A DNA stretch of 45,990 bases from Chloroflexota bacterium (GTDB taxonomy: Bacteria > Chloroflexota > Anaerolineae > UBA2200 > JACIWT01). Positions 9,038 through 19,488 of this stretch are shown here, in pieces. Every line of letters starts with the position of its first letter. Positions within the stretch are counted from its first letter, which is position 1. The stretch covers positions 1 through 45,990 of the forward strand of contig JACIWT010000017.1 in the NCBI GenBank assembly GCA_014360825.1, written 5' to 3'. A program made the translations under genes and the position numbers. The notes under the pieces are model-generated. The model was not told the DNA's origin and did no database searches. It saw nothing but the letters and a program-made list of their open reading frames with translations.

Positions 9038-9985
9038 ATGGCTGAAGAAAAGTCCGACCGGCTACTGTTTGAAGCGATTCAATACGGCTCACCGCCTGAG
9101 CGCAAGGCGGCCGAGGAGGCCCTCCACAGCAGGTATAAGGATGTGGTGCGTAGGCATATCAGGCGCAACGTGCCCCCACCTGACGCCGTTGACTTGGAGC
9201 AAACCGTCTGGATGGAGGTCATCCAAGGGGCCCGCAAGGTCCGACTGCGGTTCGAGAGTGCCGCGCCGTGGATACTGGGGATAGCCCGCAAGAAAGTGGC
9301 GGAATTCTATCGCCGTCCAAAACCACCTACCTCGTCGCTCCAAGAGGGCATGGCAAGCGAGGGCCGCATCGCTGAGCCGCTGGAAGAGCGGGAGAATATC
9401 CTGGAATTGCGCATGGCTTGGCGAGCCCTCACCCCGGAGCAGCGCTTAGTGGTTTTCCTGGCCGACATCGTGGGAGCCCCCCTCTCCGAGGTGGCGCGAT
9501 GGGTCGGTCGTTCCGAACAGGCCATCTACGAGATGCACAGACGGGCTAAGGAGGCCATCCGTTCCCTCCTGTGGGATATCCAACAGGGACACGAGCCCCA
9601 ATCCCAGTGGCTGGCGCCATCCTCCCACACCTACGTAGTCATCGATCTACACCCGGCGCTCGGTCTGGGGGAACTCCAATTTCTGGCTGAAGGCACTGGC
9701 GTGGAGCCCGACCTGTTGTTGGATTCTTTCGAGTTTGGGATGGCCCTCTACGTGGAACGGACACCGGAGTATCTGGAGGCAGTAGACCGCCACTTCGCAC
9801 TTTTTCACCTCGTTCTCCTCTCCCGGGAGGGGCTGGAGGAGTATTTGGCAGGCACGGGCGAAGGTTGTGATGCCTATGTATTCCAGATGACCCTGGAAGA
9901 CGATTGCCTTACCCCTGACCCCCGTTATCAGGCCCTCAAGATGCGCGCCGGCTGGCGCTTGCGGCCCACCGAGGGGCCCGAGTAA
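9038..9985 (+). CDS. Sigma-70 family (ECF-like) sigma factor with extra C-terminal domain
   Basis: About 315 residues counted from ATG 9038. Residues about 10-100 resemble sigma region 2 (DLEQTVWMEVIQ to AAPWILGIARKKVAEFYRR). Residues about 120-180 resemble region 4, with an HTH (LTPEQRLVVFL then APLSEVARWVGRSEQAIYEMHRRAKEAI). A further 130 residues at the C-terminus are not part of a usual ECF factor and are unassigned. The product should direct RNA polymerase to a set of element promoters. No ribosome site is obvious, so the exact start (9038, or TTG 9002) is uncertain. It leads the rightward maintenance block. Confidence 0.8.
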   Translation: MAEEKSDRLLFEAIQYGSPPERKAAEEALHSRYKDVVRRHIRRNVPPPDAVDLEQTVWMEVIQGARKVRLRFESAAPWILGIARKKVAEFYRRPKPPTSSLQEGMASEGRIAEPLEERENILELRMAWRALTPEQRLVVFLADIVGAPLSEVARWVGRSEQAIYEMHRRAKEAIRSLLWDIQQGHEPQSQWLAPSSHTYVVIDLHPALGLGELQFLAEGTGVEPDLLLDSFEFGMALYVERTPEYLEAVDRHFALFHLVLLSREGLEEYLAGTGEGCDAYVFQMTLEDDCLTPDPRYQALKMRAGWRLRPTEGPE

Positions 9986-10164
9986 GGCCACAGTTTCCTG
10001 ACCCTTTCCCATCCACGGACCGTGCGGGGTAGTGTAAACCACCGGGAATCCAAGACTCTGCCAAAACGCGTCCGCGGGCTCTCGCAAGGCCCTCTGGAGC
10101 CCTGGTCAGCGCAATCCCTGTCTCCTCCGTCCGCTGCCTTTCCCAAGACGTTGAGAATTGCCTC

Positions 10165-11883: not shown

Positions 11884-12219
11884 ATGTGGTACATCCGGAA
11901 GTCCGACTGGTGGGACCCTAAGAATACACAGATGAAGAAGACACAGAAGGAAGAATACTCAGCGTTAACGCAGATGAAAATGACGGGCGAGAAAGATCCA
12001 GCCCATATAAGGTATTTAGTCGAACAGATCCTAGAGGTATGCCGGGATACGAGGAGTACTCGCTTCTACAGCCAGGTGGCCAGAGCCTTGCCCGATGAGG
12101 TGATCTTTCGTTTCTTATCGGAGATTAAGGATGACAAGACGATCGAGAATAGGGGAGCGGTGTTCACCTCGAAGGTGAAGCGGTATCTTGAGAAAGAAAG
12201 AGATGAAATCCGCAGCTAA
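11884..12219 (+). CDS. C-terminal part of the split replication-like protein
   Basis: 111 residues in the same frame as the preceding HTH gene, starting at an internal ATG with GGAAG seven bases upstream. Residues about 30-111 (AHIRYLVEQILEVCRD to FTSKVKRYLEKE) look like the C-terminal helical domain that follows the HTH in plasmid/element replication proteins. It may be made by re-initiation, by stop-codon readthrough, or not at all if the gene is dead. No separate promoter is seen. Confidence 0.6.
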   Translation: MWYIRKSDWWDPKNTQMKKTQKEEYSALTQMKMTGEKDPAHIRYLVEQILEVCRDTRSTRFYSQVARALPDEVIFRFLSEIKDDKTIENRGAVFTSKVKRYLEKERDEIRS

Positions 12220-12889
12220 CTCTTTGCCAGCTCAATATGCCAATAGAGCCCTGCAGCGGGTTCTTCCATTTCTGACCAGCGAGTGGTTTGGGATGCTGCT
12301 TAAGGCCTGCAGGGTGATCAAGCAGCACTTGGGTCGGGAGTTGCAGGAGGGAATGTACGAGATTGTGGATTACGACTCTACCCTTGAATTGAAGGATAGG
12401 CGAGGGAGGGTGGCAACCTTGGAGCGGCAACAGAGGGTGCGCTTCCTTCAGGATAACATTATCGCTTACCAGGATCAGGCTTGGGGTGATGGCGAACTTT
12501 TCGCGGCCTACAAATGCAGCCCCGGGGTTCCCGTGGATCGCTACCGCGACGGCTTCAAATGGAAGGTGCTCATCTCCCTGCGGGAGACCAAACAGCGAGG
12601 CGAAGTCACAGAATTCCATTTACGCAGAAAGATCCGCAACGGGTTCACCAAGCCCAATGAATGGTTGCAAACGGAACTGAGTCACAGAACCCGTCACCTG
12701 CGCATTCGTATCATCTTTCCCAGAGGTCGACCCTGCCAGCGAGCGCTGCTCATAGAACGCAACCGAAACCGGACCAGCGAACTGGGGCCAGACCATTTCA
12801 GCGCCCTAGTGGATGGCCGTCAGATGCTTTCGTGGGAGACGGATCGGCCCAGGATCAATGAACTCTACACCATAAGGTGGCAGTGGTAG
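12203..12889 (+). CDS. Unknown protein, last gene of the maintenance operon
   Basis: About 228 residues from ATG 12203, overlapping the previous gene by 17 bp. Residues 35-120 contain LQEGMYEIVDYDSTLELKDR and RQRVRFLQDNIIAYQD. The C-terminal half is beta-rich with conserved-looking phrases (IRNGFTKPNEWL, IIFPRGRPCQRALLIE, INELYTIRWQW). I do not recognise the family, though it reads as a real, constrained protein. No catalytic motif is evident. A long stem-loop follows 17 bp after its stop. Confidence 0.7.
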   Translation: MKSAANSLPAQYANRALQRVLPFLTSEWFGMLLKACRVIKQHLGRELQEGMYEIVDYDSTLELKDRRGRVATLERQQRVRFLQDNIIAYQDQAWGDGELFAAYKCSPGVPVDRYRDGFKWKVLISLRETKQRGEVTEFHLRRKIRNGFTKPNEWLQTELSHRTRHLRIRIIFPRGRPCQRALLIERNRNRTSELGPDHFSALVDGRQMLSWETDRPRINELYTIRWQW

Positions 12890-12905: not shown

Positions 12906-12942
12906 GGAGGAGCGATGGGTACCTCGGACCCATCGCTCCTCC
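12906..12942. terminator. Perfect 15-bp stem-loop downstream of the maintenance operon
   Basis: GGAGGAGCGATGGGT (12906-12920) and ACCCATCGCTCCTCC (12928-12942) are perfect inverted copies around a 7-nt loop. There is no U tract on either strand, so it may be an mRNA 3' end stabiliser, a factor-assisted bidirectional terminator, or the 3' end of the leftward RNA described next. Confidence 0.6.
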
Positions 12943-13105
12943 TTGCACTCAGCTTCCTTGTCCACCACCAACCATTTGTCACCCCCCAACAAGAGATTAG
13001 CGCCCGAGCAGTCAGACCGGTCACCACGGACTGTGAGCAAGGACACCGACGATAAGGCATCAACAGTGGTAAGCCTGATGCCAGGCGAAGACAGCGCTTA
13101 TATCG
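12906..13105 (-). ncRNA. Candidate non-coding RNA from an orphan consensus promoter
   Basis: A fully consensus promoter (13112-13140) points leftward into about 215 bp with no convincing gene. The RNA would start near 13105, contain a GCCTG-GCAT-CAGGC hairpin near its 5' end and reach the 15-bp stem-loop. The minus strand also has AAGGAGG followed four bases later by ATG and 22 sense codons, partly inside that stem, so a peptide is an alternative. If transcription continues it becomes antisense to the 3' end of the gene ending at 12889. Confidence 0.45.
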
Positions 13106-13111
13106 GCCTGG

Positions 13112-13140
13112 ATTATAATCGATAACGCTCATAATGTCAA
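13112..13140 (-). promoter_or_regulatory. Perfect consensus sigma-70 promoter, leftward, without an assigned gene
   Basis: On the minus strand TTGACA (13140-13135), a 17-bp spacer and TATAAT (13117-13112) match consensus at all 12 positions. It begins 16 bp past the stop of the leftward HTH gene, so it cannot serve that gene. Confidence 0.82.
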
Positions 13141-13155
13141 ATCAATGTACTAGCC

Positions 13156-13335
13156 TCACCTATCTTTAGGTCTTGGCTTGGGGCCGGGACGGACACCACG
13201 CGCTTTGTACTCTCTGACAGCCTGCTCAGTGGTCACCCAGTTCCGACCGATCTTCTGTCCCCAGATCGTCCCCCGTCGCACCAGATAACGCAGGTGAGAG
13301 GGAGACAAACCGGAGATTCTGGCTGCCTCTGACAA
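13156..13335 (-). CDS. HTH excisionase-like DNA-binding protein, start uncertain
   Basis: The minus strand encodes a clear MerR/excisionase-type HTH: LSLSEAARISGLSPSHLRY, then RRGTIWGQKIGRNWVTT, then EQAVREYKARG and a basic Pro-rich tail. From the TTG at 13335 the product has 59 residues. The same frame stays open upstream to 13656 but has no ATG, GTG or TTG, so either TTG is the start or the gene has lost its 5' end. Proteins of this size often direct excision by tyrosine recombinases, which fits the element; that role is inferred. The rest of 13336-13723 shows nothing else recognisable. Confidence 0.55.
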   Translation of the reverse strand: MSEAARISGLSPSHLRYLVRRGTIWGQKIGRNWVTTEQAVREYKARGVRPGPKPRPKDR

Positions 13336-13723
13336 GGAGAGCAGGCGCCTTGCGGCCTCTTCCAGGTAGTCGTGCTTCGTCTGGTCACCATCCTTGAGTA
13401 GTAATGGGCTGGTTTTGAGTTTGGTCTGGCTAGCGTCTATTTTATCCCATCTTCTGCTACTCAGGTAGTTCCTTGTGTCAAGGACCCGCTGCGAATTCCC
13501 CGCCGTATTGGGCTCACTGGTGCTGATCCACGGCTGCGGAGGGGTGATGTCAAGGATTAAGAGTGGGATACAACCCGCGATACCACGATGGCCACCAATC
13601 GCTGCCCAACTGGCAATACAAAAGCAAAAATGAGCACAGAGGGGTTGTGCGGGGACTTATCGATCGCCAGGATGGGCGTGCGCAGGCTCCAAAAGAGCCA
13701 AAAGAGGGATTCGCGGAGCGCAA

Positions 13724-19460: not shown

Positions 19461-19488
19461 ATTATACCACAAAAACGAAAGTTGTCAA
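19461..19488 (-). promoter_or_regulatory. Consensus promoter for the structured RNA
   Basis: Minus strand TTGACA (19488-19483), a 16-bp spacer and TATAAT (19466-19461). Both hexamers match consensus exactly. Confidence 0.78.

Follow-up and report, generated by a model that had tools for sequence, protein, structure and literature searches.

Comparative sequence evidence makes us confident that a strong promoter in the 45,990-nt stretch of Chloroflexota DNA analysed here (the window) drives a conserved, translated micro-gene linked to the protein gene p233. The first-pass annotation had described a perfect promoter driving no gene, a description that fails because a conserved peptide, the very outcome which that annotation had named as contradicting it, is encoded between promoter and hairpin: the frame ATG GTT GGT GGT GGA CAA GGA AGC TGA (12949–12975, minus strand) specifies the glycine-rich MVGGGQGS. 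That only short frames follow the promoter was true, except that one of them, at 12975–12949 on the minus strand, is the conserved gene. Comparison with relatives shows the unit preserved in full, convergent to p233, across mobile elements of Chloroflexota, and no tested family fits. Genes of fewer than 12 codons escape gene finders, and we know of very few that have been established in bacteria.

The unit reads leftward from the promoter TTGACA-N17-TATAAT at 13140–13112 (minus strand), which matches the consensus at 12 of 12 positions, as had been claimed, and belongs to a type found 0.00 times in shuffles of the window. We infer that the RNA starts at about 13105, giving a putative 5′ leader of ~130 nt (12976–13105, minus strand) that carries, 47 nt 5′ of the ATG, the palindrome GACCGGTC and, at 12979–12987, a Shine–Dalgarno-like GGGGGGTGA (minus strand), weaker than the AGGAG or AAGGAGG of relatives. 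The micro-ORF is followed, between the two convergent genes, by a conserved terminator hairpin at 12906–12942 (minus strand). This proved to be a perfect inverted repeat with the 15-bp stem first described and a 7-nt loop, and it is the longest perfect short-range hairpin of the window; its U-tail is poor in the window copy and T-rich in most relatives. The predicted leftward RNA of about 200 nt stopping at this hairpin is likewise well supported, because relatives preserve the promoter and leader along with the covarying terminator. A strict search for the ORF pattern in the window's own genome gave a single occurrence, at 12975–12949. Two other readings of the region were discarded: a 108-aa frame at 13132–12806 starts within the promoter, 5′ of the expected RNA start, and the suspicion that the peptide was missing from the window copy, whose hairpin overlaps an ATG at 12933 (MGPRYPSLL...), fell when the true homologue MVGGGQGS was found at 12975–12949.

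Consensus quality by itself is unremarkable, because perfect promoters are common in this genome and usually precede an ordinary frame. The consensus promoters of this organism are unusually strict: its 2.9-Mb genome (G000) holds 77 perfect consensus sigma-70 promoters against none for the reversed control pattern, and a frame of at least 80 aa lies within 350 nt after 29 of 30 sampled ones. What is odd about the promoter at 13140–13112 is the absence of an ordinary gene behind it, not the promoter itself. Another 12/12 promoter of the window lies at 19488–19461 (minus strand). Among the relatives, which have near-consensus promoters at the same position, 11 of 18 tabulated units carry one (10–12 matches) 60–130 nt 5′ of the micro-ORF; the match is 12/12 in five units (the window, L052, L083, L084 and L098) and 10–11/12 in six, while upstream matches are poor in L048, L050, L078, L088 and L089.

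Relatives of p233 were collected from genome collections, giving 18 full-length loci, some of them from draft metagenome genomes. All 18 have a micro-ORF, since two apparent absences are displaced copies: 16 lie within 200 nt of p233, and the remaining two, in L084 and in L085/L106, at 0.8 kb and 4.1 kb from it. The ORF is directly 3′ of nearly all p233 relatives, on the opposite strand. In L084 and L085, inserted minus-strand genes part p233 from the micro-gene, yet the latter is intact. L061 and L063, at one point taken for loci lacking the micro-gene, both carry it, displaced by inserted genes; the p233 remnant L067 is without one. The conserved unit consists of a strong promoter, a leader of 60–130 nt, a Shine–Dalgarno sequence, a glycine-rich ORF of 6–11 aa and a hairpin terminator. 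Besides MVGGGQGS in the window, the peptides are MSGGSGT, MSGGGGT, MGGGSGT, MSGVGSGT, MTSGGGGTL, MFSGGTGT, MAGGGSGG, MSGGTGG, MAGGGNGG, MVYYGGGGDSG, MSGGGQGG, MGGGST, MKGVGTGT (with a GTG start), MALDHGGGGS, MRGGGESG and MDGGGSGT. The last (L075) belongs to a genome from a different class of the phylum, and the micro-gene spans at least two classes of Chloroflexota. L098 is a second micro-gene copy, MSGGSGT, away from p233 but within the same element; here (L052/L086/L098) the second unit is complete, with perfect promoter, MSGGSGT and terminator, and is convergent to a different small gene.

Chance accounts poorly for this association. A filter demanding a Shine–Dalgarno sequence, 5–11 codons and at least three glycines, applied to 20 downstream stretches (p233 fragments included), was positive on the minus strand in 17 and on the plus strand in none, and dinucleotide shuffles of the same stretches gave an expectation of 0.02 against the 17 of 20 loci. 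Applied to 649 kb of strand sequence from the loci, it returned 22 matches: 16 directly follow p233, three are displaced or duplicate copies and three are chance matches; with only three chance matches in 649 kb, about 0.02 chance ORFs are expected in the 18 downstream stretches. A covariance model running from Shine–Dalgarno sequence to terminator, searched against 396 genomes of the class, reached 58–84 bits at p233 elements and did not exceed 37 anywhere else. Weak matches (≤34 bits) resembled ordinary terminators, and the seven that were checked had no such ORF; a 36-bit match was the micro-gene hairpin read on the other strand. A scan of the 396 genomes for solo micro-ORFs gave, outside p233 elements, only chance-like matches at about control level, and a search of 60 related genomes for relatives of the DNA of the micro-gene region found none.

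Several features of the frame argue for translation. Its glycines stand in frame with a Shine–Dalgarno-led start throughout and are written with varied codons (GGC 28, GGT 24, GGA 16, GGG 1), as are the stops (TAA 8, TAG 7, TGA 3), and lengths range from 6 to 11 codons with differences of whole codons. Within the ORF, the duplicates L084 and L098 show synonymous differences only. L087 (MKGVGTGT) and L106 (MLGAGSGT) differ at residues 2, 4 and 6, with two glycines changed synonymously, while the leader just 5′ of the ORF is nearly unchanged; this is a single pair, no more than suggestive of a fast change in specificity.

The latter comparison could also be taken in favour of the RNA as the effector, with translation of the micro-ORF only tuning RNA stability, termination or read-through, as in a translated leader or attenuator, or with the RNA acting in trans, for the leader near the ORF stays almost constant while three peptide residues change. 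Other observations point the same way. Leader palindromes are conserved, with ACGGCCGT in L049, L052, L084 and L087 and ATCGCGAT in L078, L079 and L081 at similar places to GACCGGTC in the window, as is the hairpin 3′ of the micro-ORF, whose conserved form is GCGATGGG..CCGCGG..CCCATCGC, accompanied in most copies by a U-tract, and whose stem shows compensatory change at 11 of 13 pairs. The RNA of the window has a more stable fold than its shuffled versions (z −2.4), and minus-strand genes do lie downstream of the unit in L084 and L085. We nevertheless regard this explanation as unlikely, though deserving of serious attention: it is opposed by the in-frame glycine pattern with a Shine–Dalgarno-led start at all loci, the third-base variation and the whole-codon length changes. 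Translated leader peptides share with the micro-gene a short ORF followed by a terminator hairpin, but here no conserved same-strand gene stands downstream for an attenuator to serve.

The partner, p233, is the last gene of an operon and occupies 12203–12889 on the plus strand, with 228 aa from the ATG at 12203 and a TTG at 12188 as another possible start. Sequence searches of Pfam, NCBIfam, PADLOC and PDB sequences gave no match for p233, none of 16 members matched a PADLOC model of phage-defence proteins, and no p233 turned up in viral contigs, plasmids or phages. In an AlphaFold2 model (mean pLDDT 78), residues 46–228 are predicted to form the N-terminal saddle domain of M1 aminopeptidases and OST1. 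Fold comparison gave Z 15.5 to yeast OST1 (7oci_A) and Z 13.3 to LTA4H (3ftu), and overall Z 12–15.5 over ~155–170 residues at 2.4–3.7 Å against M1 saddle-domain folds; beta structure predominates in the model, whose only two long helices are N-terminal. By this prediction p233 shares the M1 saddle-domain fold, a likeness that by itself is no proof of function. Family searches recognised no enzyme domain in p233, and inspection of its alignment (A2) revealed neither the HExxH zinc motif nor GxMEN. The promoters of p233 itself are mostly weak; in 7 of 16 cases, including L053, L078–L081 and L088, a −10-like hexamer lies 6–12 nt before the ATG, which hints at leaderless p233 mRNAs. In L050 the N-terminal part of p233 is frame-shifted, and in L090 (G632, ~9939–10148) the N-terminal half is fused straight into a tyrosine recombinase gene, apparently by deletion.

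The strict pairing of peptide and p233 on mobile elements, together with strong micro-gene promoters against weak, possibly leaderless p233 starts, would suit a toxin–antitoxin-like arrangement in which p233 is neutralised by the peptide, or the peptide by p233, so that the element is stabilised. We think this improbable, as the two genes are convergent rather than operonic, glycine-rich 7-mers resemble no known toxins or antitoxins, p233 is without a PADLOC match and a solo micro-gene copy exists. Nor do these peptides of 6–11 aa contain the hydrophobic stretch of membrane-inserting type I toxins.

The setting of the pair is that of a mobile element. After a tRNA-Leu gene come two tyrosine integrases, then genes for a Replic_Relax protein and a TraG/HerA-like ATPase and, farther along, an AAA ATPase operon, so that the element is likely integrative and of conjugation type. 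At 42–340 of the window, tRNA-Leu(taa) stands directly before the tyrosine integrase gene, and the short repeats CTCCTGCGGA(CTT) that separate the two may be arm sites of the integrase; no second attachment site or second copy of the tRNA end was found within the window. The window is a single contig of the 2.9-Mb genome, and protein relatives are from Anaerolineae and other Chloroflexota. The surroundings of p233 vary from element to element, and the constant pair is p233 and the micro-gene, usually with a DNA-binding regulator alongside that is either of HTH_17 type, transcribed toward the micro-gene, or of XRE type, transcribed away from it. In the window this is a small HTH_17/excisionase-like gene just 5′ of the promoter (13156–13410, minus strand, start codon putative), a neighbour conserved in many relatives. 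The ending of the peptide, GT or other, follows the p233 tree with two changes, against a mean of 5.7 for shuffled labels, none of 500 shuffles being as low.

It had been suggested that the leftward transcript, which faces the end of the ‘maintenance operon’, might be antisense to the end of that operon, recalling the control of plasmid copy number. To this we give hardly any credence. The RNA ends at the hairpin, which leaves 17 nt between it and the stop codon of p233, and shares only the terminator region with the operon; it thus meets the 3′ end of the operon, with no complementarity to a replication-gene leader. The element, moreover, looks integrative because it sits beside tRNA-Leu and tyrosine integrases, and p233 and the micro-gene are kept in most relatives, in which the operon is missing. 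An Rfam search of the window matched the tRNA alone. Plasmid antisense copy-number RNAs resemble the micro-gene RNA in being short, strongly promoted and opposed to another transcript, but the latter encodes a conserved peptide.

We propose that RNA polymerase would start near 13105 and produce a transcript comprising leader, Shine–Dalgarno sequence and the nine-codon frame (MVGGGQGS and stop), ending at the 12942–12906 hairpin. The peptide would be made abundantly from the strong promoter and as such, with no processing from a longer precursor, and would serve p233, predicted to be a saddle-shaped beta protein, as a small, dedicated ligand or partner. The adjoining HTH_17 or XRE protein probably regulates the micro-gene, and might do so through dyads of the promoter or leader; the spacer in the window holds an imperfect dyad, GCGttatCGa, like those of relatives, several of whose units have a CG-N4-CG-like dyad within the promoter spacer. 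That the peptide acts with p233 as ligand and partner is the likeliest of the roles considered, a real possibility that stops somewhat short of being probable, and convergent genes may remain neighbours on other grounds, a shared terminator being one. More tentative still is the full proposal, which we judge rather more apt to be wrong than right, of an undescribed two-part module of mobile elements in which a stand-alone protein with the M1 saddle domain would have as its dedicated ligand a strongly expressed, unprocessed, glycine-rich peptide of 6–11 residues. If true, the peptide could, for example, be a signal or switch controlling the element, with its fastest-changing residues setting specificity. 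Searches of the open-licence literature turned up no account of this kind of peptide or module, although a description may exist elsewhere. The micro-gene was recognised through its partner, promoter and terminator, the partner being an unnamed protein family; it offers a testable case in which a micro-gene found in nature has a dedicated partner, and it suggests how more could be discovered, namely by searching for a strong promoter and terminator around “nothing”.

In form, the nearest analogue is mccA, encoding the microcin C precursor MRTGNAN, a 7-codon gene short enough for reiterative translation (PMC6495379). The micro-gene is likewise stand-alone, Shine–Dalgarno-led and of about 7 codons, and its length and Shine–Dalgarno sequence, strong as in mccA, might suggest the precursor of a modified peptide of microcin C or RiPP type. 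We consider this very unlikely, since the defining features of mccA seem absent: the micro-gene is glycine-rich and convergent to an unrelated protein gene with no recognised enzyme domain, the C-terminal Asn of the microcin C precursor occurs in none of 20 micro-ORFs, and no MccB/ThiF gene (PF00899) lies nearby, those of this genome being on other contigs (C6, C40 and, weakly, C19). A very short Shine–Dalgarno-led frame behind a strong promoter also recalls minigenes that act through peptidyl-tRNA drop-off and tRNA depletion (PMC8708949), but such effects would not need a glycine motif, and 6–11 codons exceed the two-codon minigenes of that work, so that we find this account scarcely plausible.

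The remaining comparisons concern the partner and the pairing. The predicted fold of p233 residues 46–228 is that of the N-terminal domain of M1 aminopeptidases and of OST1 (ribophorin I), but p233 differs from both in having no catalytic domain, zinc motif or detectable sequence similarity. Phr peptides are derived from longer precursors that are exported, and their receptors are helical TPR proteins. With the Phr/PhrI-type peptides of ICEBs1 and pLS20 our system shares the pairing, on an integrative or conjugative element, of a short peptide gene with the gene for one specific protein. It differs in that the entire ORF is 6–11 codons, leaving no longer precursor with an export signal, and in that p233, in place of a helical TPR receptor of RRNPP type, is predicted to be a beta saddle.
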